Source of the DNA: Campylobacterota bacterium
GTDB taxonomy: Bacteria; Campylobacterota; Campylobacteria; Campylobacterales; Sulfurovaceae
Length of the DNA stretch: 39,258 nucleotides
Direction: 5' to 3'
Assembly: GCA_015494795.1 (NCBI GenBank)
Contig: WGAM01000004.1
Span: 1 to 39,258 of the forward strand
Position numbers and translations under genes: made by a program. Positions 8,820 to 25,117 of this stretch are shown one piece after another. Positions within the stretch are counted from its first letter, which is position 1. Each line of letters starts with the position of its first letter. The notes beneath the pieces are model-generated. The model did no database searches, had not been told where the DNA came from, and was given only the letters and a program-made list of their open reading frames with translations.

Positions 8820-9581
8820 ATGATTAAAAAATTATGGAATATACTATTACTACTTATATTAATACCAATATATCTATACTCATCAACAAGAGGTGATATA
8901 AAGATTATTGAAGCATCAGAGAGTATTAGATACCTTAGTCAAAAGATTTCTAAAGAGTATCTATATTTTTATAAAAATCCTAAAAAAATATATATAAAAG
9001 AGCAACTAAATAGAGATATTAAATATTTAAAGCAATCTATTCAAGATATAGCTAATATTAATAGTAGTAGAGATAGTAATAATATATTAAATTTTCTTAG
9101 ACACAATATAGAGAATATTGAAAAACTAATTAATAAAGATGTAGATAGAAAAAAGGCACTTAATATTTTAAATTATAGTGAGAGCTTTTTAGAGGGTTCA
9201 AATAGTATTGAAAAACAACATAAGTATAAATTTTCCACTGAAGAGGAGATATTAATGTCATTTAAAAATATTGAGTATCTTTTACAAAAAATATCTAAAT
9301 ACTATATAGCATATACATTAAAAATTAATAGAAAAGATAATTTAAATAGTATGAAAATTGCTATTAACAAGATTGATAATATATTAAGTAGAATAAATAG
9401 CTATAACTATCCTAAAAGAGTCTTTAATAAAGTTAGAGAAGCTAATAGTATATGGATTAAACATAAGGAGCTATTTTATAAATTACCACAGTTAGAAATT
9501 CCTAATCTTATCTCTATATCTACTCTACTATTAGAAGATAATATAAAAAAAATAGCTTCATATTATGGGCAAAATCACTAA
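8820..9581 (+). CDS. Periplasmic protein with two PilJ/NarX-like helical sensor modules
   Basis: The 253-residue protein has a signal peptide (MIKKLWNILLLLILIPIYLYSS) and no further membrane helix, so it should be periplasmic. It is all-helical with two similar repeats: IEASESIRYLSQKISKEYL (about 29-47) and LMSFKNIEYLLQKISKYYI (about 144-162). Each is followed by a long second helix. This resembles the PilJ-type N-terminal module (PF13675) of NarX/NarQ and type IV pilus MCPs. The first repeat keeps an Arg where the NarX P-box has its nitrate-binding Arg; the second does not. It ends 12 bases before the hybrid kinase, so it is probably a co-expressed ligand-binding partner. Ligand binding is inferred. 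Confidence 0.6.
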   Translation: MIKKLWNILLLLILIPIYLYSSTRGDIKIIEASESIRYLSQKISKEYLYFYKNPKKIYIKEQLNRDIKYLKQSIQDIANINSSRDSNNILNFLRHNIENIEKLINKDVDRKKALNILNYSESFLEGSNSIEKQHKYKFSTEEEILMSFKNIEYLLQKISKYYIAYTLKINRKDNLNSMKIAINKIDNILSRINSYNYPKRVFNKVREANSIWIKHKELFYKLPQLEIPNLISISTLLLEDNIKKIASYYGQNH

Positions 9582-9593
9582 AAAGGATTTTTA

Positions 9594-12593
9594 ATGAAAT
9601 TAAACAATAGAAATAGAGTAGTATTTTTTATATCTATTATAATAATAGTTATCTCTATAATAATTACACTATTTTATTATGTAGCTATATCATATAATAA
9701 ATGCGTAAAAGATGAAGAGAGTATGCAGAGAGTTGAAATTATAGATAGATTAAATAATCTTATGAATAATATAGAAGAAGAGAAGTTATATAGTGCATTA
9801 TATTTAGCTAAAAAGGATAAAAAAGAGTTAGATAAGATAAAAAAATATAGAGACAAGGTTAATCTAAATATAGAAGATATTATCTCTTTTATAAATAAAA
9901 ATAGTAACATCTCTAAATATAGAAGTAAGATAAAAGATATTTTTAAATATTTAAACTCTACTAGAAATAGGGTAGATAGATTAAATAGTGAATATAGAGA
10001 GATTTTTTTTAAAGATTATTTTAATAAAGTTACTAAACCTATTCTTAGATTAATAGAACTTAACTCTATAGAAAAAAACAATAAATTATACTACTTTATA
10101 GAGCTTAATAGATTAAAAGAGAATTTAAATAGAGAAAAGATATTTATCTCATATATATTAAGTAAAAATATAAAAATGAGTGATAAAGATTTACTACTAT
10201 GGGATAAGTTACTAGATAATGATAGAGTTCCAAACTTCTATACCAAACTAAATAGTGTTATAATGATAGATAAGCTAAATAAGATAATTAATATAGAGAA
10301 TTTTTTAAATAGAATAGATAATTTAAGAGCTAAAATCTTTATGAACTCAATGAGTGGAAGATATAAAATATCTGTTAATGAGTGGTTAACGAGTGTTACA
10401 GATAGAGTTAATAGAGTTAAAACAGCAGAGAAACTTCTATTAAGTAGAGTTAAAAATAATATAAAAAATAGTCTCTCTAATTCAAAAGATAATACAGTTA
10501 AACTGATGTTTATCTCTCTTTCTATGTTAATCTTACTCTTTACTATTATCTATCTATTTAAAAATAGTATTAAAAATAATAGACTATTAATGAATACTTT
10601 AAAAGATATAGAGATAGACTTAGATGAAGAACAGAAAAAAGAGATTAGAAGAGTTCTTGAGAAAAATGATACTATTGAGATATATAACTTTTTAGCAAAT
10701 GCAATTAAAGAGCCAAGTCGTGCAAAGGACTATTTTCTTGCAAATATGAGTCATGAGATTAGAACTCCTCTAAATGGTATAATAGGATTTACAAATATAT
10801 TAAAAGAGACAGAGTTAAAAGATGACCAGAGAGAGTTTTTAAATATTATAGAGGAGAGTTCAAATAATCTAATTAATATTGTAAATGATATATTAGATTT
10901 TTCTAAAGTATCATCAGGAAAAGTTGAATTTGAACATATACCTTTTAATCTTATGGAGAAATTTGAAGCAACTGTTGACTCATATTCAGCTAAAGCATCA
11001 CAAAAAAATATTAATCTTGAACTATTTATAGACCCGACTATCCCTTTAGAAGTTATTGGAGACTCTACTAAAATATCACAAGTCATTATTAATCTACTAA
11101 GTAATGCTGTTAAATTTACAAATAAAGGTGGAAATATATCTACTAAAATAGAAAAAATCTCACAAAAAGATAATATAGTAACCATTAAATTTTCTGTTAA
11201 AGATAGTGGTATTGGAATATCTGCTAAACAGCATAGTAAAATATTTGATGCCTTCTCACAAGCAGATGCAAGTACTAGCAGAAGATTTGGAGGTACAGGA
11301 TTAGGGCTTAGTATATCTAGTAAATTTGTATCTCTAATGGGTGGTAAGTTAGATGTTGAGAGTCAAGAGAATAGTGGAGCTAAATTCTTTTTTACTTTAG
11401 ATATGCCTATTCCTAAAGGGGTAAAGGAGAGAGAAAAACCAAATTTTAGAGATTTAAAAGTTATATATATTGTATTAGATGATAATAGAATTGATATAAA
11501 TTTAAAAAAATATTTAGAGTATATGGGTGTAGAGTTAAGAGCATATAACTATAAAAAAATATTAGAAGATAAGTTAGAGGCAGATATTCTATTTATAGAC
11601 CATCAATATATTAAAGATGAAAAGATAATAGAAGATATTAGTAAGATTGATATAAAGAGTGTTCTATTAACAACAGCAGAGATAGAGAGTTGCAACTGTA
11701 ATATTAAAGATAATTTTATAAAGGTGATATATAAACCAATAAACTATAGTAAAACATTAAGAGCATTAGAGTTAGTAGATAATAATACATCTTTACTAAA
11801 AGAGAGAATTAGCAGAGTAGATGATAGAGAGATAAATAGAACTTTTAAAAATATAGATGCACTTGTTGTAGAAGATAATATAATTAATCAAAAATTAATT
11901 AAAAAGATTTTAAATAACTTTAACATTAAAGTAACTATTGCATCAAATGGATTAGAGGCTCTAAACCTATATAAGATTAATCATTATAATATAATATTTA
12001 TGGATATACAGATGCCAATTATGTGTGGCATAGAGGCTACAAAAAATATTTTAAAATATGAAAAAGAGAATAATCAAAAACATACTCCAATAGTTGCATT
12101 AACTGCAAATGTTATTACAGGAGATAGAGAGAAATATTTAGCTAGTGGTATGGATAGATATTTAAAAAAACCTATAGATATTAATGAGCTTACAGCTATA
12201 TTAGAGGAGTATTTTCCTATTGTTAATATTAGAAACTCTATACCGTTAGATAAAAATAGCAATAGTAAAAAAGAGAAAATTATACTATATAAAGAGACAG
12301 AGTTAAATGCAAAAATATATAGTGCTATTTTAAAAAACTTGGGATATATAGTTGATGTCTATAGCTCTAAAGATGAGTTTCTAAAAAATATAGATAGTAA
12401 TTATAAATTTGCACTATTTGATTTATCCCCTTTTAGAAAATTGGATAGTGATGATTTTATTATTAATTTAATAAAAGAGAACAAAATAGTACCTATAGCT
12501 TTTGTTGATAGTGATATTAAATCATCTTGTGAAACATTAAAAGAGAGTGGAAATATTAATGAGATTTCTAAAAAACTAAAAAAGTGTAGCTAA
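9594..12593 (+). CDS. Hybrid histidine kinase with NIT-like sensor and three receiver-like domains
   Basis: The 999-residue membrane kinase has TM1 (about 8-30), a long helical periplasmic part (31-300) resembling the NIT nitrate/nitrite-sensing domain, and TM2 (about 304-323). HisKA follows with phospho-acceptor H387 in MSHEIRTPLNG, then HATPase_c with N504 (INLLSNAVKF), DSGIGIS and GGTGLGLS. A degenerate receiver (about 622-725) lacks an evident phospho-Asp. A canonical receiver (about 755-875) has D804 (FMDIQMP) and its conserved Lys in LKKP. A third receiver-like domain closes the protein (about 897-995, FALFDLSPF). No Hpt domain and no adjacent response regulator are seen, so the output is unknown. 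ATA/AGA-rich codon use is stronger than in ffh or nasA. AAAAGGA precedes the start. Confidence 0.85.
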   Translation: MKLNNRNRVVFFISIIIIVISIIITLFYYVAISYNKCVKDEESMQRVEIIDRLNNLMNNIEEEKLYSALYLAKKDKKELDKIKKYRDKVNLNIEDIISFINKNSNISKYRSKIKDIFKYLNSTRNRVDRLNSEYREIFFKDYFNKVTKPILRLIELNSIEKNNKLYYFIELNRLKENLNREKIFISYILSKNIKMSDKDLLLWDKLLDNDRVPNFYTKLNSVIMIDKLNKIINIENFLNRIDNLRAKIFMNSMSGRYKISVNEWLTSVTDRVNRVKTAEKLLLSRVKNNIKNSLSNSKDNTVKLMFISLSMLILLFTIIYLFKNSIKNNRLLMNTLKDIEIDLDEEQKKEIRRVLEKNDTIEIYNFLANAIKEPSRAKDYFLANMSHEIRTPLNGIIGFTNILKETELKDDQREFLNIIEESSNNLINIVNDILDFSKVSSGKVEFEHIPFNLMEKFEATVDSYSAKASQKNINLELFIDPTIPLEVIGDSTKISQVIINLLSNAVKFTNKGGNISTKIEKISQKDNIVTIKFSVKDSGIGISAKQHSKIFDAFSQADASTSRRFGGTGLGLSISSKFVSLMGGKLDVESQENSGAKFFFTLDMPIPKGVKEREKPNFRDLKVIYIVLDDNRIDINLKKYLEYMGVELRAYNYKKILEDKLEADILFIDHQYIKDEKIIEDISKIDIKSVLLTTAEIESCNCNIKDNFIKVIYKPINYSKTLRALELVDNNTSLLKERISRVDDREINRTFKNIDALVVEDNIINQKLIKKILNNFNIKVTIASNGLEALNLYKINHYNIIFMDIQMPIMCGIEATKNILKYEKENNQKHTPIVALTANVITGDREKYLASGMDRYLKKPIDINELTAILEEYFPIVNIRNSIPLDKNSNSKKEKIILYKETELNAKIYSAILKNLGYIVDVYSSKDEFLKNIDSNYKFALFDLSPFRKLDSDDFIINLIKENKIVPIAFVDSDIKSSCETLKESGNINEISKKLKKCS

Positions 12594-12605
12594 TCTTTTT
12601 TATTA

Positions 12606-12648
12606 AAAAGAACTAATAATTATAGAATAAATCACTATTAGTTCTTTT
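12606..12648 (+). terminator. Terminator after the hybrid kinase
   Basis: AAAAGAACTAATA and TATTAGTTCTTTT are a perfect 13-base inverted repeat with a 17-base loop, 13 bases past the kinase stop. The symmetrical A/T flanks would let it work on either strand. Confidence 0.7.
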
Positions 12649-12949
12649 ATATTAAGTACTATTTTTTAGTGCTAAAGCCCATAAAATAATACTTTCAAAA
12701 GAGTTTTTTTTATATATATTTCACGATTAGAACACATTTTAATAATATACTTTGAACATGAAAGAGATAATTTTTTCCTTTTTTTATTATCTTTCTTTCA
12801 TAAATTTTAATTTAAAATAGCTTTTACCTCATATTAGTATTTATGCCCAAAACCGATTAGGTACAGTAAAAGCTATCTTAATCCTTCTTCTTCTATTTAA
12901 TCAAAAATTATGATACAATAAATTAATTATAGTTTTAGGAGTCTATATT
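12649..12949. other. Non-coding stretch with several inverted repeats
   Basis: No ORF of note is seen on either strand. The stretch has three further inverted repeats. AGTACT/AGTGCT lies at 12655-12673. An imperfect ATGAAAGAGATAAT/ATTATCTTTCTTTCAT hairpin lies at 12758-12801. A perfect 11-base ATAGCTTTTAC/GTAAAAGCTAT pair closes a 38-base loop at 12817-12876. Local composition is less A-only than the flanks (GCCCAAAACCGATTAGG). It could hold a small RNA, a leader or a decayed mobile element; I do not recognise a known RNA family. Confidence 0.5.
12914..12919 (+). promoter_or_regulatory. -10 box candidate for the 559-aa lipoprotein
   Basis: TACAAT about 30 bases upstream of the ATG at 12950, with TTAGGAG as ribosome binding site nine bases before the start codon. 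Confidence 0.4.
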
Positions 12950-14629
12950 ATGTATCATATTGGATTAGTTTTACTCTTTTTATTGCTTAGTGGATGTGCA
13001 GAGGAGAATAAGATTAATATAGGAGATATTATATTAAATCAAACAACAGTAGAGCAAAATTCTACCTTAGAAGATAGATATATGTCATTTACTCAAAAGT
13101 ATTATGAGAATAAAAAATATCCTGTTAGAGAGTATTGTAATGATAAGAGAGCTTTACTTACAGATGATAAGTTCTCAACAGAGATATATCTAAAGATAAA
13201 AAATGAAAGAACAAAACAGAGCCGTGTTGGTAAATACCCTATATGGTTTCTATTAAATGATGATGCTAAAGATATTCAATGTGTAAGAAAGAGTGCAAAT
13301 TTTATTAATGAAGAGCCTTTTGTTGTAAATGATAATGATAAATTGAGCTTAAAAATACTTCAAAAAAATCAAGATGAGAAGAGAGTCCCTATTAGAGAGT
13401 TAGGAGTTTTAATTGATTTTATAGGCTTAGTTGTTCCTCAAACTGCTAATTTTCTACTAAAAAGCAATAACTTAATAAAAGATCCTATTACTAAAAGCTA
13501 TTTAGATACTATAGAGAGTGCCTTTACAAATGGTGACCTTGATGGTACTAAGAGTCGTAATTTTACAACTAAGACTAAATTAATTAAGATAAAACTTATT
13601 GTTCCACAGAAAGATTTAAAAAAGAGAGATTTAGGCTATATTATCTTAAAACCAAAATATAGAACAACCCTATCTACAGTTGATATTATAAGAGGTGTTC
13701 CAAATTTTAAATATATATTTACAACTAGTGACCCTAGAATAGAAGATATTATAAACTATAGACTAAAATCAACCAATATGACAATAAAACAAGAGATTAA
13801 TAACTTTAAACATTTAGCAGATGAGTATATAATAGATGCTCTAAATAGATTAAATATTCATATATTAAACCGTTTTACAAGTTATGATAGAGGATTGATT
13901 TTAGCATTAGCTTTAAGAGAAACCTCATTATATAAGAGATTTTCACAAGCTATACGAGCAGAGAATATTCAAGAGGTATCAAGATATCTAAAGATATTAG
14001 ATAGTAAAGATAATCCTCTTAATGATTTAAGTAAAGTTTTAAACTTAACAGGTATAGAGTATTATAGATTTATGTATAGTGCAAATAGATTAATTAAAAA
14101 TAGTCAAATAGCTAATGAGGAGAGATCTAAAGAACAAGAGAGATTAAAACAAGAAGAGATAAAAAGAGAGATTGAGCTTCAAGGAATAGAAAACTTTTTA
14201 ATACCAGTTAGTAGATGGAGCTATATCCCTAGAATGTTTTCTAAAGATGCTAAAATAGTAGATACAAATGGAGAGAGTTATACTATATCAGACCTACAAA
14301 AACTATATAATAGACAGAATAATGTTTTATCCTATGGCTGTTATACAAATCTACAAAACAGAATTCATGGTATTACTATTCAAGATTATCTAATTCACCC
14401 AAACTATACAGATGGTATTAAATATAACTATATGGCTATATCAATGGATAAAAACAAGACAATTAGCACTTTTTTCTATGGATTTAAATCTAATGACTTT
14501 AATCATATTAAGATTAATCATATATTAATAGATAAAGATGGATATTTTATTATGAAGAGCAGACTTAAAGAGGTTTTAAAAAGAAGTGATGTAAAGATGT
14601 GTTATAGAGATATTTTATCAGCTATTTAA
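12950..14629 (+). CDS. Unrecognised lipoprotein with charged coiled coil
   Basis: The 559-residue protein is not recognised. It has a lipoprotein signal (MYHIGLVLLFLLLSGC, lipobox LLSGC, C16). The N-terminal half (30-300) is mixed alpha/beta and mentions no known motif. A highly charged helix (about 385-412, ANEERSKEQERLKQEEIKRE) looks like a coiled coil. It joins a C-terminal domain (about 413-559) with three cysteines (SYGCYTN near 463, KMCYRD near 550). It stands alone between a repeat-rich intergenic region and ffh. The AT-rich codon use matches the kinase pair upstream, hinting at a shared history. Location at the inner or outer membrane is open. Confidence 0.6.
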   Translation: MYHIGLVLLFLLLSGCAEENKINIGDIILNQTTVEQNSTLEDRYMSFTQKYYENKKYPVREYCNDKRALLTDDKFSTEIYLKIKNERTKQSRVGKYPIWFLLNDDAKDIQCVRKSANFINEEPFVVNDNDKLSLKILQKNQDEKRVPIRELGVLIDFIGLVVPQTANFLLKSNNLIKDPITKSYLDTIESAFTNGDLDGTKSRNFTTKTKLIKIKLIVPQKDLKKRDLGYIILKPKYRTTLSTVDIIRGVPNFKYIFTTSDPRIEDIINYRLKSTNMTIKQEINNFKHLADEYIIDALNRLNIHILNRFTSYDRGLILALALRETSLYKRFSQAIRAENIQEVSRYLKILDSKDNPLNDLSKVLNLTGIEYYRFMYSANRLIKNSQIANEERSKEQERLKQEEIKREIELQGIENFLIPVSRWSYIPRMFSKDAKIVDTNGESYTISDLQKLYNRQNNVLSYGCYTNLQNRIHGITIQDYLIHPNYTDGIKYNYMAISMDKNKTISTFFYGFKSNDFNHIKINHILIDKDGYFIMKSRLKEVLKRSDVKMCYRDILSAI

Positions 14630-16036: not shown

Positions 16037-17668
16037 TTAATGATTACTTATCAATAAAAAAATAAGCCATAAATTAACAATAAATGAGAGTGTAAAAGCA
16101 ATCCTATAGAAAAGTGAAGGGTTTCGCTCTTGTAGAGTCATATTTTTATGAAAATAGGGTTTTACCTTTTCTGGATTATTAATCTCAAAAAGCATCTCAG
16201 AGTAATTTTTATAGCGAAGTTTACTATCTCTACTTATAGAGCGTAAAATAACACTATTGAGCCATGCTGGTATCTTACTATTCTCTTTTATAGGTTGTGT
16301 TGGCTCTTTAAAGCTAGGTGTTTGAAAAGGTTCTATCTCACCATAAGGAAATCTACCTGTTAATGCTTCATAGAGAGTAACTCCAATAGCAAAAAGTTCA
16401 GTAGATTCATTAATACTACTTCCTAAAAAACGCTCAGGAGCTAAGTAAGATGGTGTTCCTGCATTTGAGGTTATGCTATAGAGTTCAGTCATTGAGCCAA
16501 AATCAATAATTTTAAAAATATGTTTTCCATGTCTCTCTAGCACCATAATATTTTCAGGTTTAATATCCCCATGTACCAAATCATATTTAAGTAGATATTG
16601 TGCCATTTTTAAAAGAGTTTTAGCTAAAGTAATAGCATCATCAACGGAGAGTCTTCTCTGTTTTAGATGAGTTTTAAGGTTAACCCCCTCTAAATACTTC
16701 ATTATATAATAGCGATGTGTTCGTTTTTTAGGAATAACGGCTTTGGGAAAAAATCCAGCTTTAAGTCTTTTAGAGTTCCATGCCTCTTTAACATAGAGGT
16801 CTAATATGGAAGAGTCATCTAATGCCTCAATAGGAGCAAACTTAAGTACATAATTTTGACCTCTTTTAGAACAGAGCCAAGTACGATTATTTTGAATAAG
16901 AGATTTTTCAAGCTTATATCCATCTATTACCATATCTTTACTAAGACTCTGTGGAATAATAAGCTTTTGTTGTTTTAGAGTATGAACAGGACAAATATCC
17001 AATACCTCTACCACTACAGCAGTGGTATCATCAGGCAGATTATCCTGCATAAGATAACTAGCTTGTTTTACAATAGCATGAGCTGTACCTATATTTAATA
17101 GAGTTGTTTTAATCTTATTATCACTCATAACAGCATTAAGACCATCACTACAAAGAAGTAGCCTATCTCCTCTATTAATCTTATTTTCAAAATAGTAAGG
17201 GAAGACCTCATCAGCAATTCCAACTGCTTGTGTCAACATATTACCTTCAGCTTGGTCATGTGAAATTTGAGTAAGTTTTTGATTTCGTAAAAGATATATT
17301 CTACTATCTCCTACATTTGCCCCATAGAGTCTATCACCTTCAATAACAGCAATGGCAAGAGTAGTTACCAATTCAGGTCGTTCATAATTAATTATTGACT
17401 CTTGATAAAGAATACTATTAATTGAACTAATAAATGTTTTGATTGATTTTTCAATGCTCCAACTCTGTGGACGATTTTTAAAGTTATTCATAAGGTATTT
17501 TGTAACTCGCCTTGCAGCCTCAGCCCCCTCATCGGCACTACCCACACCATCACATACAATAGCAATAGTAAAGTTATCTATACTCTTTACATCAAAGTAA
17601 TCATCACCAATTAACTCTTTCCCTTTTGCTAGTGAGAAGCCTGAAGTTTTTATGTTTTGTTTAGACAT
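16037..17668 (-). CDS. PP2C phosphatase-Ser/Thr kinase fusion with C-terminal membrane anchor
   Basis: The track starts at TTG 17689, but ATG 17668 (MSKQNIKTSGF) is preferred because AAAAAGGAAATTCC provides a ribosome site and the extra residues are only poly-Lys. The product is about 543 residues. A PP2C domain (1-230) shows CDGVGSADEGAEAA, GANVGDSRIYLL, CSDGLNAVMSD and DDTTAVVVEV. A protein kinase domain (about 245-510) shows VLKFAP, LVHGDIKPENIMV, IIDFGSM and GTPSYLAPE. A C-terminal helix (FTLSFIVNLWLIFLLI) anchors it, with both enzymes in the cytoplasm. It lies 75 bases after narK. This fusion recurs beside nitrate transporters in many proteobacteria, so control of nitrate uptake or reduction is likely, but targets are unknown. 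Confidence 0.85.
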   Translation of the reverse strand: MSKQNIKTSGFSLAKGKELIGDDYFDVKSIDNFTIAIVCDGVGSADEGAEAARRVTKYLMNNFKNRPQSWSIEKSIKTFISSINSILYQESIINYERPELVTTLAIAVIEGDRLYGANVGDSRIYLLRNQKLTQISHDQAEGNMLTQAVGIADEVFPYYFENKINRGDRLLLCSDGLNAVMSDNKIKTTLLNIGTAHAIVKQASYLMQDNLPDDTTAVVVEVLDICPVHTLKQQKLIIPQSLSKDMVIDGYKLEKSLIQNNRTWLCSKRGQNYVLKFAPIEALDDSSILDLYVKEAWNSKRLKAGFFPKAVIPKKRTHRYYIMKYLEGVNLKTHLKQRRLSVDDAITLAKTLLKMAQYLLKYDLVHGDIKPENIMVLERHGKHIFKIIDFGSMTELYSITSNAGTPSYLAPERFLGSSINESTELFAIGVTLYEALTGRFPYGEIEPFQTPSFKEPTQPIKENSKIPAWLNSVILRSISRDSKLRYKNYSEMLFEINNPEKVKPYFHKNMTLQERNPSLFYRIAFTLSFIVNLWLIFLLISNH

Positions 17669-17743
17669 AAGGAATTTCCTTTTTTTCAACTTACTATTCT
17701 CTCATTCCCACGCAGAACATGGAAATAAATTTGGAGATAAAAT

Positions 17744-19024
17744 TTAAATTCGTCCACCAGCTTGAAGCCCCCAAGTTGTTCTCCAACGAGTCTTAACCAT
17801 TGAGATACCAATAATAGCTACAAGAACAACACCTGCAAAAATCATAAATCCAGCAGAGTAACCATTAAATGCACCTTTACTCCAACCAAGTGTTTTAATA
17901 AGAGCTGTACCACCAAGTCCACCTGCAGCACCAATAATTCCTGTCATAATACCAATATCTTTACCAAATCGTTGTGGAACAAGTTGAAACACAGCACCAT
18001 TTGCCATTCCTAAATTTGCCATAATTAAAAATAGTACTAAAATCGCTATCCAAAATGGAAGAGTTATTAAGGCATTTAAAATAGCTAATAGTGTAACAAC
18101 TCCAAAGAAGATATATAGAGACTTAATTCCACCCATCTTATCTGCTACAGCACCCCCAACAGGTCTTAAAACTGCACCTGCAAAAATGGTTAATGCTCCA
18201 AAATATCCTGCAATTACTTTAACATTTGGCTCATTAAACCACTCTAATCCAAGTGATGACATATCTGCTTGATAACTATTCATAAGATATACTTTCATAT
18301 ATCCAGCAAAACCAACAAAACCACCAAAACTAATCGCATAAAATAGATTAAACCACCATGTATCTTTATCTCTTAGTAGTTTAGTATAATCTTTTAATTT
18401 TTTTGGTCTAGGTGTATATATCTCTTTAGGTGCATCTTTTGCCATAAATATATATGTAATAAATATTAGAGTAGATAGTGAACCTGCTACTAAAAATACT
18501 GCTTGCCAACCCCATAGTTCTGCAATTTTAGGAGCAAATAGAAAATCTATAACAACACCAATATTTCCAGCTCCTGCAATTCCTAATACAATCCCTTGAA
18601 GTTTTGGTGGATACCACTGTCCTGCTTGTGGAAGTGCTACAGCAAATGAAGCACCTGCAAAACCTAATCCTAAAGCAACAACTAAAAGTTCATTATATGA
18701 GATATGCTCTCCTCTAATATAAGCATAAAATAGAACTGAAATAACAACAGCTTGTGACATAAGTGCTGTCTTTTTTGCACCAAACTTATCAACTCCAAAT
18801 CCTAAAAGTATTCTAAGTAATGCTCCAGATAAAATAGGAATAGATAGAAGTGTAGCTTTGGCACTAGCACTCATAACAAATCCTCCATTTGATAGTGAAT
18901 CTGCTATCTCTGTAGATAGAGGTCCTAACATTGTCCATACCATAAAAGAAAAATCAAAGTATAAGAATGCTGCAAATAGTGTTTTTGCATCTCCTTGTCC
19001 TTTTAGTGCTTTAAATCCTGCCAT
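17744..19024 (-). CDS. narK: NarK-type nitrate/nitrite transporter (MFS)
   Basis: The 426-residue protein has 12 predicted membrane helices and the nitrate/nitrite porter pattern of the major facilitator superfamily. The start FSFMVWTMLGPLSTEIA, the FAVALPQAGQWYPPKLQG segment and the glycine-rich IAGAGNIGVVID and GAAGGLGGTAL nitrate-signature helices are visible. It is divergent from nirA across a 257-base promoter region and followed by the PP2C-kinase. With nirA and nasA this indicates nitrate import for assimilation. A nitrite-export role cannot be excluded. AAAGGAG precedes the ATG. Confidence 0.92.
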   Translation of the reverse strand: MAGFKALKGQGDAKTLFAAFLYFDFSFMVWTMLGPLSTEIADSLSNGGFVMSASAKATLLSIPILSGALLRILLGFGVDKFGAKKTALMSQAVVISVLFYAYIRGEHISYNELLVVALGLGFAGASFAVALPQAGQWYPPKLQGIVLGIAGAGNIGVVIDFLFAPKIAELWGWQAVFLVAGSLSTLIFITYIFMAKDAPKEIYTPRPKKLKDYTKLLRDKDTWWFNLFYAISFGGFVGFAGYMKVYLMNSYQADMSSLGLEWFNEPNVKVIAGYFGALTIFAGAVLRPVGGAVADKMGGIKSLYIFFGVVTLLAILNALITLPFWIAILVLFLIMANLGMANGAVFQLVPQRFGKDIGIMTGIIGAAGGLGGTALIKTLGWSKGAFNGYSAGFMIFAGVVLVAIIGISMVKTRWRTTWGLQAGGRI

Positions 19025-19054
19025 AAATAACTCCTTTAATTTTAAGTTATGAGA

Positions 19055-19060
19055 ATTATA
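19055..19060 (-). promoter_or_regulatory. -10 box candidate for narK
   Basis: TATAAT on the minus strand about 31 bases upstream of the narK ATG, at one end of the narK-nirA divergent region. Confidence 0.45.
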
Positions 19061-19191
19061 ATAGTTTTTTTTAATAAAATATACATTTTTATGATTAAAA
19101 TTTAAACATATTAATAATTTAGATTTTAAAACAAAATCAAATACAAAATAGCATATAGTAGAGATGAGACAAAAAGAGAAGGAGTATTAAG

Positions 19192-19207
19192 ATATTTGAG
19201 CAAATAT
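19192..19207. promoter_or_regulatory. Palindromic operator candidate in the narK-nirA region
   Basis: ATATTTGAGCAAATAT is a perfect 16-base palindrome lying about 38 bases upstream of the nirA -10 box and 132 bases from the narK -10 box. The position fits an activator site for nirA. The TTTG/CAAA arms are only loosely like CRP/FNR half-sites, so the regulator is unknown. Confidence 0.5.
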
Positions 19208-19244
19208 TATACAACTCTTTTATATTATATTGTTAATTTTTTAA

Positions 19245-19250
19245 TATAAT
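19245..19250 (+). promoter_or_regulatory. -10 box candidate for nirA
   Basis: TATAAT 32 bases upstream of the nirA ATG, preceded by T-rich periodic sequence typical of Campylobacterota promoters, with AAAGGA before the start codon. Confidence 0.5.
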
Positions 19251-19281
19251 TATCCAATAATAGAGAAGATAAAGGATAAAT

Positions 19282-21204
19282 ATGAGTACTATTCTACAGA
19301 GTGCATTTGATAAAAGGAATAGAAAGCAGAACAAAATAGAGAAGATTAAAGAGACTAAATTACCATTAGATGTATATAGTAAGCTTGAAGAGATAGCTAA
19401 AGGTGGGTATGATAATCTATCAAAAGAGGATAGTAGCTATTTTTTAAAATGTTTTGGTCTTTTCGATAAAGGCGAAGATTTTATGCTTCGTGTTCGTGTT
19501 CCTATTGGACAACTCAATAATACTCAAGCAATACGAATTGGAGAGGTTGCTAAGGAGTATGGAGATGACTATATAGATATTACTACAAGAATGCAGATAG
19601 AGCTTCGTTATATAAAAATAGAAAATATAGCAAAAGTTTTAAAATCTCTTGATGAGGTTGGAATTACTACATTTCAAACAGGTGTTGATAATCCTAGAAA
19701 TATTGTATCTGACCCACTTGATGGATTGGCATTTGATAATATTATAAATACAAAGCCGATTGTTGATGAACTCCAAAATTTAATAATTAAAAATCCTGAT
19801 TGGATATCTGTATTACCTAGAAAATTTAATACAGGTATCTTAGGTTCTCTCTCTAACTCATGTAATATATTTGGACATGACTGCTGTTTTGTTTTAGCAA
19901 ATTTAAACGGAGAGTTTGGATTTAATGTATATTTAGGTGCTAGAGTTGGTGTTCAGGCAAAAGATGCTAACCTATTTGTATCTATTAGTGAAGTTAGTAG
20001 CTTCTATATGGCACTATTAGAGACATTTAAAACTTACGGTTATAGAGATAATAGAAATAAAAATAGATTACATTTTCTACTTCAAGATGTGGGAGTAAAA
20101 GCTTTTGTTGATGAGATAAAAAGAAGAGCAGGTAAAAACTTCTCTCCTGCTGGAGCTACTCTTGTTCAATCTAAAAATATAGCTTTAGGCTCAAATAGAG
20201 TTCTACTTAAAAATGGTAAATATGCTCAAAAAGTTATTGTTCCATCTGGAATTTTTAGTGGTAGTGATATGATAGAGTTAGCAAAAAGGGCAGAGAGTTT
20301 CGGTTCTGGTGATTTAAGATTGACTTATGACCAAAATATATATGTTGTAAATCTTGATATTAATGCTTTAGATGCTTTTAACTCAACTACTATAGTTAGC
20401 AAATATAAACCTTTTAATAATATCTATTTTAACGATATGATAGCTTGTGCTGGTACAAAAACTTGTAGTTTTGGAGTTATTCCAAATAAGCCTGATGCTA
20501 TTGAGATGGCTCACTTTTTAAACTCAGAGGTAAAAATAGAGAGTGGAATGGTAAGAATGAACTGGTCGGCATGTCCTAAAGGGTGTGGAGTTCATGGAAT
20601 TGCAGATATTGGATTTGAAGGGTGTAAAGCTAAAGATGATAATGGGAAAAGAGTTGATGGTGTCCATATCTTTTTAGGTGGAAAAATAACCCGTGAAGCA
20701 AAAGAGGCACATACTTTATATAAAGCTCTACCTATTACTGAAGCAAAATATCATGTAAAATATCTTTTAGAGGTATATGCTGAATTTAAAAAGAGAGGGG
20801 AGACTTTTGAGTGTTTTGAAAATCGATATCTTTCTACAAACTACTCATATCAAGCTATTAGCTTTTATACAAAAATCAATTATATCTTAAATGAAAAATT
20901 AAATTTAGGTGTAAAATTAAAATTAGAAGAAAAACCAAAAACATATAAAAAAGAGAACTTTGAAATATTTAATTTTGGATTAAAACTATTTAAACTCCTT
21001 ACAAATGAGAAGCGTTATGTAGCTGTTGAAGATTTTGAACCAGTTTTAAATCAACCTAGAAAGATTAAAAGAGATGAGATTAGTAAAATAAATCCAAAAG
21101 TACCAAAAAAATTGAGTGAAATTATCTATACAATGACTGATAATAATAGAAAAACAAGAGCATCTGTCTTTTCTGAATTATTAATTGAACTAAAAGGAGT
21201 ATAA
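19282..21204 (+). CDS. nirA: Ferredoxin-type assimilatory nitrite reductase (siroheme, 4Fe-4S)
   Basis: The enzyme reduces nitrite to ammonium with six electrons. The 640-residue protein has two ferredoxin-like/NIR_SIR half repeats. The cluster-siroheme ligands are C389 and C395 (CAGTKTC) and C431 and C435 (CPKGC). TTRMQIELRYI in the N-terminal half is the usual substrate-side segment. NirA is more often 500-600 residues; here a Lys-rich C-terminal extension (about 530-640) follows the core. The family also contains sulfite reductases, but the setting with narK and nasA decides for nitrite. Its stop is two bases before the start of the ferredoxin/membrane subunit gene. Confidence 0.9.
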   Translation: MSTILQSAFDKRNRKQNKIEKIKETKLPLDVYSKLEEIAKGGYDNLSKEDSSYFLKCFGLFDKGEDFMLRVRVPIGQLNNTQAIRIGEVAKEYGDDYIDITTRMQIELRYIKIENIAKVLKSLDEVGITTFQTGVDNPRNIVSDPLDGLAFDNIINTKPIVDELQNLIIKNPDWISVLPRKFNTGILGSLSNSCNIFGHDCCFVLANLNGEFGFNVYLGARVGVQAKDANLFVSISEVSSFYMALLETFKTYGYRDNRNKNRLHFLLQDVGVKAFVDEIKRRAGKNFSPAGATLVQSKNIALGSNRVLLKNGKYAQKVIVPSGIFSGSDMIELAKRAESFGSGDLRLTYDQNIYVVNLDINALDAFNSTTIVSKYKPFNNIYFNDMIACAGTKTCSFGVIPNKPDAIEMAHFLNSEVKIESGMVRMNWSACPKGCGVHGIADIGFEGCKAKDDNGKRVDGVHIFLGGKITREAKEAHTLYKALPITEAKYHVKYLLEVYAEFKKRGETFECFENRYLSTNYSYQAISFYTKINYILNEKLNLGVKLKLEEKPKTYKKENFEIFNFGLKLFKLLTNEKRYVAVEDFEPVLNQPRKIKRDEISKINPKVPKKLSEIIYTMTDNNRKTRASVFSELLIELKGV

Positions 21205-21206
21205 TA

Positions 21207-22796
21207 ATGGAAAATAGAACACCTTTAGAGTCATTTATAAACCATAAAGCCAAGACAGGAATGCAATGTGGTAACTACAGCATAGATATTCCTGAGCTAA
21301 AAGAGGGTGAACAGTACCGTTTTCACTTTGATGCAACTGCTTGTGTAGGGTGTCACTGTTGTGAAGCTGCATGTAATGAGCTTCAAAATAACCCTGCTGA
21401 TGTAAAGTGGCGACGAGTTGGTGAGATGGAGGGGGGAGAGTTTCCTAATGTCTTACAGTTTTTTAACTCAATGTCATGCAACCACTGTATTGAGCCTGAA
21501 TGTCTTAAAGGTTGTCCAACTAACTCTTATATAAAATTTGAAGATAGTGGAATTGTTTGGCATGATGATGATAGCTGTATTGGGTGTCAATACTGTACAT
21601 GGAACTGCCCCTATGAAGTGCCTGTTATGAATTACGATAGAGGCATTGTTACTAAATGTGATATGTGTCATGATAAACTCGCTATTGGTGAAACTCCTGC
21701 TTGTGTTCAAGCCTGTCCTGCTGGTGCTATTGAGATTGAAGTGGTAAATAAAGAGGAGTGGATAAAGCATAATATGGAAAAAGAGGGAGTTGCACCTCAT
21801 CTTCCTGATATTGAAATTACTAAACCAACTACACGCTATACTCTTCCTGAAAATATGCCTCAATTGAGTCCTGCTGATGAGAGACTACTAAAACCTGCCC
21901 ATGCAGAGTTACCTTTAGTATTTATGACAATCTTAACTCAAGTATCATTAGGTGCATTCTTAGCTCTCTTTTTAGGTCAAGTTCTTTTCTCTTTAGGGTT
22001 TAATCTACCTGAACCATCATTAGCTATGGCAATTATAGCATTTATTCCATCTGCCATTGGGTTACCTCTCTCTGCTCTACATTTGGGTCGTCCTATTATG
22101 GCAATGACAGCTATGAAAAATTGGAAAACCTCATGGTTAAGTCGTGAAGCTATTGCTTTGGGTGCTTATACAGGCTTAGCTACAGTAGTAGCAGGAATGT
22201 ACTTTTTAGAGATAAAAGGGTTTACTCTTATTTTTGTAGAGGCTATAACCTTAATAATAGGGATTTTTGGTATCTATGCACAATCAATGATATATAGAGT
22301 AAAAGCAAGACCTGCATGGAATAGAGTATCAACCACTAAAAGATTTTTTGGTTCAGGTTATATTGGTTTTTTACTTATCTCTATACTACTTCTAATTAAT
22401 AATGGTGGAGCAGGTGCAACAGTACTTTTAGCTGTTTCTCTATTGGCTGGTATGGCACAAGTATTGATTGTCTATGAAGAGGTAATGTTTTATCGTCATT
22501 TAAATAAAAGTGACCCACTTTATTACCAATTAAATAGAACACGAATATTACTTAAAGAGCATTTTGGTCAGATTAAAAAGTTTAGACTCTATAGTTTAAT
22601 TGGATTTGCTTTAGTTTTACCACTATTGGGTGTACTCTTTACAGCAAGTGGATTAATTAATTTAGCAATTACTACACTTGTAATATCAACTGTTGGTGCA
22701 TTGCTTTCTGAATTAGCAGGACGATACTTATTTTATAGAACTGTTGTCCCTTTGGGATTAGCAGGAAACTTTTTTGCTGGAAATCAGAGAGGATAG
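21207..22796 (+). CDS. Fused four-cluster ferredoxin (DmsB-like) and DmsC-like membrane anchor
   Basis: The 529-residue protein joins two subunits that are separate in most molybdoenzymes. Residues 1-190 have four 4Fe-4S motifs (CVGCHCCEAAC, CNHCIEPECLKGC, CIGCQYCTWNC, CDMCHDKL with CVQAC). Residues 235-520 have about eight membrane helices of the DmsC/NrfD-like anchor type (LPLVFMTILTQVSLGAFLALF). It sits between nirA and nasA with two- and eight-base gaps. It probably takes electrons from menaquinol and passes them to NasA, giving membrane-bound nitrate assimilation. No Tat signal is present, so the cluster domain faces the cytoplasm. Whether it also feeds NirA is open. Confidence 0.88.
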   Translation: MENRTPLESFINHKAKTGMQCGNYSIDIPELKEGEQYRFHFDATACVGCHCCEAACNELQNNPADVKWRRVGEMEGGEFPNVLQFFNSMSCNHCIEPECLKGCPTNSYIKFEDSGIVWHDDDSCIGCQYCTWNCPYEVPVMNYDRGIVTKCDMCHDKLAIGETPACVQACPAGAIEIEVVNKEEWIKHNMEKEGVAPHLPDIEITKPTTRYTLPENMPQLSPADERLLKPAHAELPLVFMTILTQVSLGAFLALFLGQVLFSLGFNLPEPSLAMAIIAFIPSAIGLPLSALHLGRPIMAMTAMKNWKTSWLSREAIALGAYTGLATVVAGMYFLEIKGFTLIFVEAITLIIGIFGIYAQSMIYRVKARPAWNRVSTTKRFFGSGYIGFLLISILLLINNGGAGATVLLAVSLLAGMAQVLIVYEEVMFYRHLNKSDPLYYQLNRTRILLKEHFGQIKKFRLYSLIGFALVLPLLGVLFTASGLINLAITTLVISTVGALLSELAGRYLFYRTVVPLGLAGNFFAGNQRG

Positions 22797-22804
22797 GAGA
22801 TACA

Positions 22805-25117
22805 ATGTTACATAAAATAAAAGAATTTTTAGGCGTAGATATAAAAATAGATAAATATAAAAAAGCAGATGATATAAAGTTTGGTAAAATCTCTAAATTT
22901 AAAATACCAGATGAGTGGGTTCGTAGCACTTGTGGCTATTGTGGTGTAGGGTGTGGACTCTATATTGGAGTTAAAAATGGACGACCTGTTTACACTAAAG
23001 GAGACCCTTCTCACCCTGTAAGTAAAGGGACTCTTTGTCCTAAAGGGTTAACAGAACATGAGATGGTGGACTCTAATAACCGTGTAACAACTCCTATGAT
23101 ACGAAAAAATGGAGCATTACAAGCTGTAGAGTGGGACGAAGCGTTCTCTTATACGGCTAAAAAATTTCAAGATATTCAAGCCAAATATGGTAAAGGTGCA
23201 GTTGCGTGTATCTCTACTGGGCAGTTCTTAACTGAAGATTTTTATACTTTAGGTAAATTTGTTCAACTGGGACTAGAGACAAATAACTATGATGGGAATA
23301 CCACTTTGTGTATGGCTTCAGCTGTAATGGGGTATAAACAGAGTTTTGGTTCCGATGGTCCTCCTGCTTCATATGAAGATTTCTCCTATGCTGATGTTAT
23401 TATGTTGATTGGTGCAAATATTGCAGATAATCACCCTATTTTAAAGCTTCATATTGCTAGAAATAAGAAGATTAGAGGCAAAAAACCGACTATTATTGTA
23501 GTTGACCCTCGACACTCAAAAACAGCAAATATGGCAGATATATTTGTACCATTAGCTCCACGAAGTGACTTAGCGTTAATTAATGGACTTTGCTACATTA
23601 TCTTTGAGCAGGGTTGGGAAGATGAGAAGTTTATAAAAGAGAGAACAAGTGGAGCTTTAGAGTTTAAAAAACATATTATGAAAAACTACCCACCACAAGA
23701 GGTAGCAAATATTACAGGTATAGAGGTAAAAGAGCTTTATCGTTTAGCTAAAGTATATGCATCAGCAGATAGAGCTATGAGTGCATGGACAATGGGGGTA
23801 AATCAAAGCTCTATAGGGACAGATACTGTTTCTGCTATATGTAATTTAGCACTAATTACAGGAAACTTAGGAAAAGAGGGTGCTTCACCATTCTCTATTA
23901 CTGGTCAATGTAATGCTATGGGAACTCGTGAATTTGGATTTACCTCTTCTATACCAGGGTATAGAAATTATTCATCAAAACAAGATAGAGAAGAGTTTGC
24001 TAATATTATTGGAGTTCCAATAGAGCTTATTCCAACTAAAAGGGGATATGCCTATCCAGAGATAATAGAGGCTATAGATAGAGGAGAGATAAAGGCTCTT
24101 TGGGTAACAGCAACCAATCCACTAGTATCATTTCCTGACCAAAATAGATTACGAAGTGCCTTAAAAAAGCTTGATATTTTAGTTGTTCAAGATGCATTTA
24201 TGTCTGAAACAGCTCAAGAGGCAGATGTAATATTCTCTGCTGCTACTTGGAGTGAAAAAGAGGGAGTCTATACAAACTCAGAGCGACGATGTAACTATGC
24301 AAAAAAGGCTGTTGAGCCATTAGGTAAAACAATGAGTGATGCCAATATTGTTATAGAGTTCTCTAAATATTTTGAGGGTAAATATGAGTTACTCTTTAAA
24401 GATTTTAAAAGTAGTAGAGATATATTTGAAGAGATAAAGCTTGTTAGTAAAGGTCAACTATGTGACTACTCTGGAATGAGTTATGAGAAGATAGAAGAGT
24501 TAGGAGGTATTCAATGGCCATGTAATGAACAGTATCCAGAGGGTAAAAAGCGTCTCTACACAGAAGGTTTTGATTGCCCTACTGATGATGGAAAAGCAAA
24601 ACTCTTACCTGTAGATTGGAAACCTTTAAGTGAGTCATGTAACCCTAACTTTCCTCTAAATCTAAATACAGGTAGAACTGTAGAGCAGTGGCATACACGA
24701 ACTAAAACTAAAACTATTTCACTTTTAAATGATTTAGCACCAGAAGCGTGGGTTGAGCTTAATCCTAAAGATGCTAAAAAGCTAAAAGTAAAAAGTGGTG
24801 ACAGAATTAAAATAGGTTCAAGTCGTGGAAGTGTTGAAAATCTTATTGTAAAGGTTACAGAAGTTGTGCGAGAAGGGGATTGTTTTGTTCCATTTCACTT
24901 TAGTGAACAGATGATAAATAATCTTACCATTGCTGACTTTGACCCAAAATCATTTGAACCTAACTTTAAACAGTGTGCTGTTAATATATACTCTGACAAT
25001 GTTCCTGAAGGGATTAAAATGGAAGAGACTAAGATAGCAGGAGAGTTAGAGGAGCAAAATAGTGCTAAAAACTCAAACTATATAGAAGAGCTATCTTCTA
25101 AAAAGAGAGAGGTTTAA
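22805..25117 (+). CDS. nasA: Assimilatory nitrate reductase catalytic subunit (Mo-bisMGD)
   Basis: The enzyme reduces nitrate to nitrite in the cytoplasm. The 770-residue protein has an N-terminal 4Fe-4S site (C43, C46, C50, C78; CGYCGVGC ... TLCPKG). The molybdenum ligand is probably C169 in TTLCMASAVMGYKQSFG, the Nap/Nas-type pattern. Molybdopterin-binding segments (ANIADNHPILKLH, ATNPLVSFPDQNRL) and the C-terminal molydopterin-dinucleotide domain (from about 620) follow. There is no Tat signal, which separates it from NapA, and no C-terminal BFD [2Fe-2S] domain as in some NasA. It ends the nirA-BC-nasA operon. AGGAGATAC precedes the ATG. Confidence 0.92.
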   Translation: MLHKIKEFLGVDIKIDKYKKADDIKFGKISKFKIPDEWVRSTCGYCGVGCGLYIGVKNGRPVYTKGDPSHPVSKGTLCPKGLTEHEMVDSNNRVTTPMIRKNGALQAVEWDEAFSYTAKKFQDIQAKYGKGAVACISTGQFLTEDFYTLGKFVQLGLETNNYDGNTTLCMASAVMGYKQSFGSDGPPASYEDFSYADVIMLIGANIADNHPILKLHIARNKKIRGKKPTIIVVDPRHSKTANMADIFVPLAPRSDLALINGLCYIIFEQGWEDEKFIKERTSGALEFKKHIMKNYPPQEVANITGIEVKELYRLAKVYASADRAMSAWTMGVNQSSIGTDTVSAICNLALITGNLGKEGASPFSITGQCNAMGTREFGFTSSIPGYRNYSSKQDREEFANIIGVPIELIPTKRGYAYPEIIEAIDRGEIKALWVTATNPLVSFPDQNRLRSALKKLDILVVQDAFMSETAQEADVIFSAATWSEKEGVYTNSERRCNYAKKAVEPLGKTMSDANIVIEFSKYFEGKYELLFKDFKSSRDIFEEIKLVSKGQLCDYSGMSYEKIEELGGIQWPCNEQYPEGKKRLYTEGFDCPTDDGKAKLLPVDWKPLSESCNPNFPLNLNTGRTVEQWHTRTKTKTISLLNDLAPEAWVELNPKDAKKLKVKSGDRIKIGSSRGSVENLIVKVTEVVREGDCFVPFHFSEQMINNLTIADFDPKSFEPNFKQCAVNIYSDNVPEGIKMEETKIAGELEEQNSAKNSNYIEELSSKKREV

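Follow-up and report, generated by a model that had tools for sequence, protein, structure and literature searches.

PilJ and NIT domains are familiar as nitrate sensors that form part of larger receptors. In NarQ, NarX and McpN, the two chains of the dimer hold nitrate through a G-x-x-R motif on their helix 1 (PMC8199190, PMC6381276); in NasR, residues E175 and R176 are implicated in the nitrate pocket (PMC7496416). Other kinases work with separate partners, and those named TorT, AioX and LuxP are periplasmic binding proteins (PMC5908839). The proteobacterial regulators of anaerobic respiration, including NarP/NarL, are not conserved in Campylobacterota (PMC6682613); because of this, and because many nitrate reducers from vents and sulfidic settings belong to the phylum, a candidate sensor from it is useful. 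Such a candidate is encoded in a 39,258-nucleotide stretch of contig WGAM01000004.1 (assembly GCA_015494795.1; the whole stretch is called the window), where the gene for a small exported protein with two PilJ-like repeats precedes the gene for a hybrid histidine kinase with a periplasmic NIT domain. The pair is a pared-down form of a conserved Campylobacterota receptor module in which the receptor appears to have been separated from the kinase, copied in tandem and left free of the nitrate motif beside the kinase, and which offers a testable case of a ligand site passed from a receptor to separate proteins.

The small protein, here termed type C, is encoded at 8820..9581 on the + strand (open reading frame call; 253 aa) and the kinase at 9594..12593 on the same strand (open reading frame call and Pfam; 999 aa), leaving a gap of 12 bases, exactly as the original prediction had it; a plausible ribosome-binding site precedes each gene. 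The window comes from a 1.92 Mb assembly of a sulfur-oxidising bacterium, and the closest named record is a contig (L031) of a metagenome-assembled genome labelled 'Campylobacteraceae bacterium', whose small protein is 80% identical. A search with the small protein against 397 genomes of the phylum returned matches in 17, of which 15 were kept: 13 from the window's family, f1, its own genome included, and two of family f9. The remaining two, both of family f7, were set aside, one (G009) as a weak match lying in a flagellar hook-length-type, FliK-like protein and the other (G143), also weak, by analogy with it. Scoring of all frames in the neighbourhoods of relatives with profiles yielded 19 kinase loci, including those of the window and L031. 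Type C stands directly before the kinase in 18 of the 19, across two Campylobacterota families and mostly at gaps of 6–18 bases, so that the conserved linkage of the two genes, for which a neighbourhood survey had been proposed, is borne out. At least one further double-PilJ protein lies upstream at 16 of the 19 loci, with up to five at one (L032), and 15 of these 16 loci have at least one member that keeps G-x-x-R. These extra proteins are of two kinds, type B adjoining C and type A distal to it, and the array may total six.

Several features of individual arrays are recorded here in their own right. Two near-identical type B genes in one array (L032:10287-11075 and 11912-12703, genome G316) represent a recent duplication, and in G285 a gene for a di-haem cytochrome c peroxidase (CCP_MauG) lies between two PilJ array members (L037:10611-11603). 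At two f9 loci (L043:8863-10494 in G249 and L049:5750-7288 in G047), the array is followed by a protein with a NIT-like part and a HATPase-like end in which no HisKA phospho-acceptor domain is recognisable, an apparent pseudokinase. Genome G234 has two kinase-linked modules and, besides them, an A+B double-PilJ pair (L045:7349-8894) with no NIT kinase in the 16 kb fetched.

The original prediction described the small protein as having two PilJ-like modules, a description upheld by profile comparison with its neighbours. Residues ~1–22 form an N-terminal Sec-type signal or anchor, followed by two four-helix repeats. The PilJ model of Pfam (PF13675) gives the window protein 16.7 bits where the cut-off demands 26.6, over repeat 1 only, and it brings just 4 of 16 type C proteins to E 0.05; by contrast, all 22 of the A/B proteins tested match PF13675, and when an A/B profile was compared with solved structures the nitrate-receptor domain of McpN (6gcv) was closest (E=1e-5), PilJ itself also being found. 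Profile-profile alignment (hhalign) matches the type C family to the linked A/B proteins at 99.9% probability over 245 columns. Because this match spans both repeats and the A/B proteins are all PilJ-positive, both type C repeats can be taken as PilJ-like, and by sequence the window protein is a divergent double-PilJ protein although the Pfam model alone misses it. An AlphaFold2 (AF2) model of type C is all-helical with 4+4 helices, at low confidence (mean predicted local distance difference test score, pLDDT, 58.6; alignment of two rows, window and L031). Foldseek with this model found nothing at E<0.001; McpN appeared at probability 0.97 but E 0.46 and was not used as evidence. Searches of PDB sequences with the type C and NIT profiles gave coincidental helical matches only, and comparison of the type C profile with that of the NIT domain showed no signal of homology (7% probability).

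The helix 1 signature of NarX, NarQ and McpN is present in the A/B proteins of relatives and absent from the window protein. Among 39 A/B sequences, the Gly position is G in 36 (repeat 1) and 37 (repeat 2), and the Arg position is R in 36 and 35, respectively. Of 18 type C sequences, 16 have E at the Gly position of repeat 1 and 16 have K at that of repeat 2; at the Arg position, R or K is found in 16 for repeat 1 and E or D in 13 for repeat 2. In the window protein, G-x-x-R is replaced, by family alignment, with E34-S-I-R37 in repeat 1 (8919..8930, + strand) and with K149-N-I-E152 in repeat 2 (9264..9275, + strand). The earlier claim that only the first repeat keeps the Arg is thus right and holds family-wide (R37 versus E152), but the Gly is gone from both repeats (E34, K149); the proposal that the repeats have divided jobs is better replaced by that of one decayed, pseudo-symmetric site. 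As judged from the alignment, the E/R/K/E replacement in type C is systematic and charge-complementary: were the repeats packed like the NarX dimer, E34 would lie opposite K149 and R37 opposite E152, and salt bridges would replace the ion. The motif in A/B also bears on a different account of the periplasmic protein. CpxP is an accessory protein that acts on CpxA. A comparable role for the window protein, as an inhibitor or stress-type accessory whose PilJ origin is irrelevant and which has no small ligand, is improbable: the near-strict G-x-x-R of the neighbouring A/B paralogues points to ligand binding as important for the module as a whole, although kinase accessory proteins that act by contact are known, such as QseG for QseE (PMC12691602).

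The kinase meets the description of a hybrid histidine kinase, with HisKA (residues 378–442, including an H-box), HATPase_c (489–605) and a receiver, REC, with its Asp (757–870), all assigned by Pfam at 10725..12203 (+ strand) and with motifs intact; by eye, the stretches flanking the receiver resemble degenerate receivers, and no Hpt domain was found in the protein. Its periplasmic NIT domain covers residues ~33–303 (9690..10502, + strand) between two transmembrane segments, limits that were read from sequence, and matches NIT at 31–34 bits over residues 56–286. The NIT-like domain of the earlier claim was confirmed by the PF08376 profile check (31.1 bits, above the cut-off of 24.9), and 15 of 18 aligned sensor regions match NIT at E 0.05. 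An AF2 model of the NIT part (pLDDT 42.0, from an alignment of the same two rows) was unusable. The pocket has lost its conserved Arg pair. The Arg of each NIT half is Lys in the window kinase: half 1 has E63-K64 (9780..9785, + strand; by alignment ER in the Hpt-type NIT kinases) and half 2 has E181-K182 (10134..10139, + strand), placed at the NIT helix-5 'ER' of NasR E175/R176 by motif match rather than by structure. An Arg in both halves (R/R) is found in 13 of 13 scorable Hpt-type kinases, a set that includes relatives in the phylum without the operon having been examined, in 5 of 19 PilJ-linked kinases and in 0 of 8 solo kinases.

The NIT sensor profile of the PilJ-linked kinases finds matches in 257 of 397 genomes of the phylum. 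Among 15 other NIT kinases surveyed for neighbours (eight without an Hpt relative and seven beside one, including the window genome's own paralogue, C23, which follows an Hpt protein), none has a PilJ protein beside it. An Hpt-protein relative adjoins 6 of 14 other NIT kinases fetched, several of them also with a CheY-like receiver. In a tree of 32 kinases, the Hpt-linked sequences form one clade (100/99) and the PilJ-linked ones do not form a single clade. The widespread operon of an Hpt-domain protein and a NIT hybrid kinase, often with a CheY-like receiver (L065:4506-8909; L105-L110), has ER in both NIT halves, and its kinase is a good candidate for direct sensing.

The nitrate-assimilation genes narK, nirA and nasA do lie downstream of the pair, at 17744-25117 and 5 to 6.5 kb and more past the kinase, as had been claimed; the proximity is not conserved. 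Three genes intervene, for an unknown lipoprotein, ffh and a PP2C/kinase fusion. None of the 15–17 kb neighbourhoods of relatives holds nitrate-assimilation genes near the module, in G264 nirA is ~350 kb away, and a neighbourhood link to nitrate assimilation was rejected, the nas genes lying apart from the module in all relatives examined. Of the 15 module-bearing genomes, 13 have NapA over the cut-off and the others have assimilatory NirA, which is missing from three of the 15. This co-occurrence fits nitrate as a cue without proving it, and it does not discriminate, since the genomes without both are mostly of one genus; NapA or NirA is also found in most family members without the module. 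Direct nitrate sensing by the window pair, with the small protein binding nitrate or nitrite, the NIT domain as co-receptor and the nearby assimilation genes under its control, is therefore judged unlikely. It could draw on the proven nitrate sensors in both domain families, the Arg retained in repeat 1, the nas genes ~5–6.5 kb downstream and the presence of NapA and/or NirA in each of the 15 genomes with the module. It conflicts with the loss of the Gly from both repeats and of the Arg from one, the K/K pocket of the NIT domain, the lack of linkage and the three genomes without NirA, with the frequency of NapA and NirA in module-free genomes, and with the finding that a NIT domain of Pseudomonas aeruginosa binds no nitrate (PMC6381276). 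The original prediction of a split nitrate sensor has thus survived in part: homology and strict linkage make a split sensor with an exported partner likely, and the part in which the pair itself senses nitrate or nitrite is unsupported, because G-x-x-R is replaced in both repeats, the NIT pocket is K/K and the nas genes are unlinked in relatives.

Three proteins of this part of the window merit separate mention. The lipoprotein gene 3′ of the kinase (12950-14629) encodes a probable lipoprotein of 559 aa with no Pfam match, which occupies the same place in L031. The fusion joins a PP2C phosphatase part to a Ser/Thr kinase part (16037-17689) and is flanked by ffh and the nitrate transporter gene. 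A 4Fe-4S protein fused to a DmsC-like membrane anchor is encoded between nirA and nasA (21207-22796), which is odd for a nitrate-assimilation cluster.

The window's own genome has no A/B orthologue, the best match scoring 84 bits against 223–394 for nearly all genuine A/B proteins. It does encode other free PilJ proteins with intact motifs: one of 283 aa with two domains, two of 570 and 554 aa with four each, and one of 302 aa with two weaker domains. The two largest (L063:6896-8608, 570 aa; L064:1514-3178, 554 aa) are apparently exported and have no kinase domain. Three Hpt domains were found in the genome, one beside the paralogous NIT kinase; because there are only three, the phosphorelay partner of the window kinase is possibly shared. 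Ratios of nonsynonymous to synonymous substitution rates (dN/dS) against L031 (NG86) are 0.23 for type C, 0.33 and 0.15 for the sensor part and the core of the kinase, respectively, and 0.12–0.14 for neighbour genes; the type C/kinase pair is under purifying selection and is not a wreck. That the pair is a decaying remnant doing little after the loss of A/B would agree with that loss from the genome and with sensor parts that evolve faster than the neighbours, but it is very improbable, as both genes are intact in the window and L031, dN/dS is far below 1 and the kinase motifs are intact. Alternatively, type C might itself be a genuine receptor whose E/R/K/E site binds some other ligand, be it a cation, an amine or another anion, for the kinase to read. 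The conserved, non-random E/R/K/E set, the purifying selection on gene C and its occurrence alone with the kinase at three loci speak for this role, which we nonetheless regard as rather unlikely: the neighbourhoods give no clue to a ligand, being variable among genomes and housekeeping where identified, and a buried, charge-balanced set would account for the conservation without one.

The favoured explanation, to which we give about an even chance, is that the NIT domain of one hybrid kinase is the target of exported double-PilJ proteins and that the window pair is a reduced form of this arrangement. The two repeats of each A/B protein would form a single-chain pseudo-dimer like the dimer of NarX or McpN and would bind a small oxyanion, either nitrate or one like it. 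Type C would be a decayed receptor of fixed shape, with the ligand replaced by the internal salt bridges R37-E152 and E34-K149, and would dock on the NIT domain as an adaptor. The kinase, which has its own receiver, would feed a phosphorelay by way of an Hpt protein supplied from another locus. In this organism, type C may tune the kinase alone or relay the state of another free PilJ protein; because the nitrate motif is lost, the window pair is probably a relay rather than the nitrate detector itself. A more specific version is conceivable though doubtful: several exported proteins with tandem PilJ repeats, each equivalent to the NarX nitrate dimer in a single chain, would report through one ligand-free, salt-bridge-locked paralogue, whose salt bridges mimic the bound ion, to one kinase with a decayed NIT pocket, the whole serving as a nitrate-sensing system of free-living Campylobacterota.

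Several observations weigh against the favoured explanation. The interaction and the ligand are predictions from sequence, and neither AF2 model is good enough to place E34 and R37 opposite K149 and E152. Type C occurs with no A/B in the operon at three loci (window, L031 and L047), so the module does not depend strictly on A/B in cis; one locus (L048) has C with one degenerate A-like protein, and another (L046) has a kinase with B and a degenerate A-like protein and no C. Within the PilJ-linked lineage, five solo kinases do without a linked PilJ protein and also without R/R, and therefore loss of the NIT pocket need not depend on the PilJ proteins.

Such a module is undescribed in the open-access literature covered (titles, abstracts and searched passages), most subscription journals lying outside that scope. 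As read from the genomes, what is new is the array, the motif replacement in its kinase-proximal member and the decayed NIT pocket. The A/B proteins resemble NarX, NarQ and McpN in carrying G-x-x-R and in matching the solved domain of McpN; in those receptors, however, the PilJ-type domain is part of a membrane receptor with its site between two chains, whereas here a single free chain contains two PilJ copies, and NIT takes the place of PilJ in the kinase. The window kinase resembles NasR and the NIT-domain kinases in that its periplasmic domain is NIT by profile, but the pocket Arg is mostly lost in the PilJ-linked lineage and kept in Hpt-type NIT kinases elsewhere in the phylum. QseG, as is proposed for type C, is an exported accessory protein, and it activates the kinase QseE by contact (PMC12691602); it differs in being an outer-membrane lipoprotein. 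The system as a whole is a variant of the binding-protein-plus-kinase kind, as in TorT-TorS, AioX-AioS and LuxP-LuxQ, where a separate exported protein thought to carry the ligand acts on the periplasmic part of the adjacent kinase; TorS and LuxQ are also hybrid kinases. It departs from them in that type C lacks a periplasmic-binding-protein fold, to judge from its PilJ relatives by profile and the low-confidence all-helical model, in that one kinase often has several partners, each a PilJ protein with four-helix units in tandem, and in that the partner adjacent to the kinase has lost the nitrate motif.

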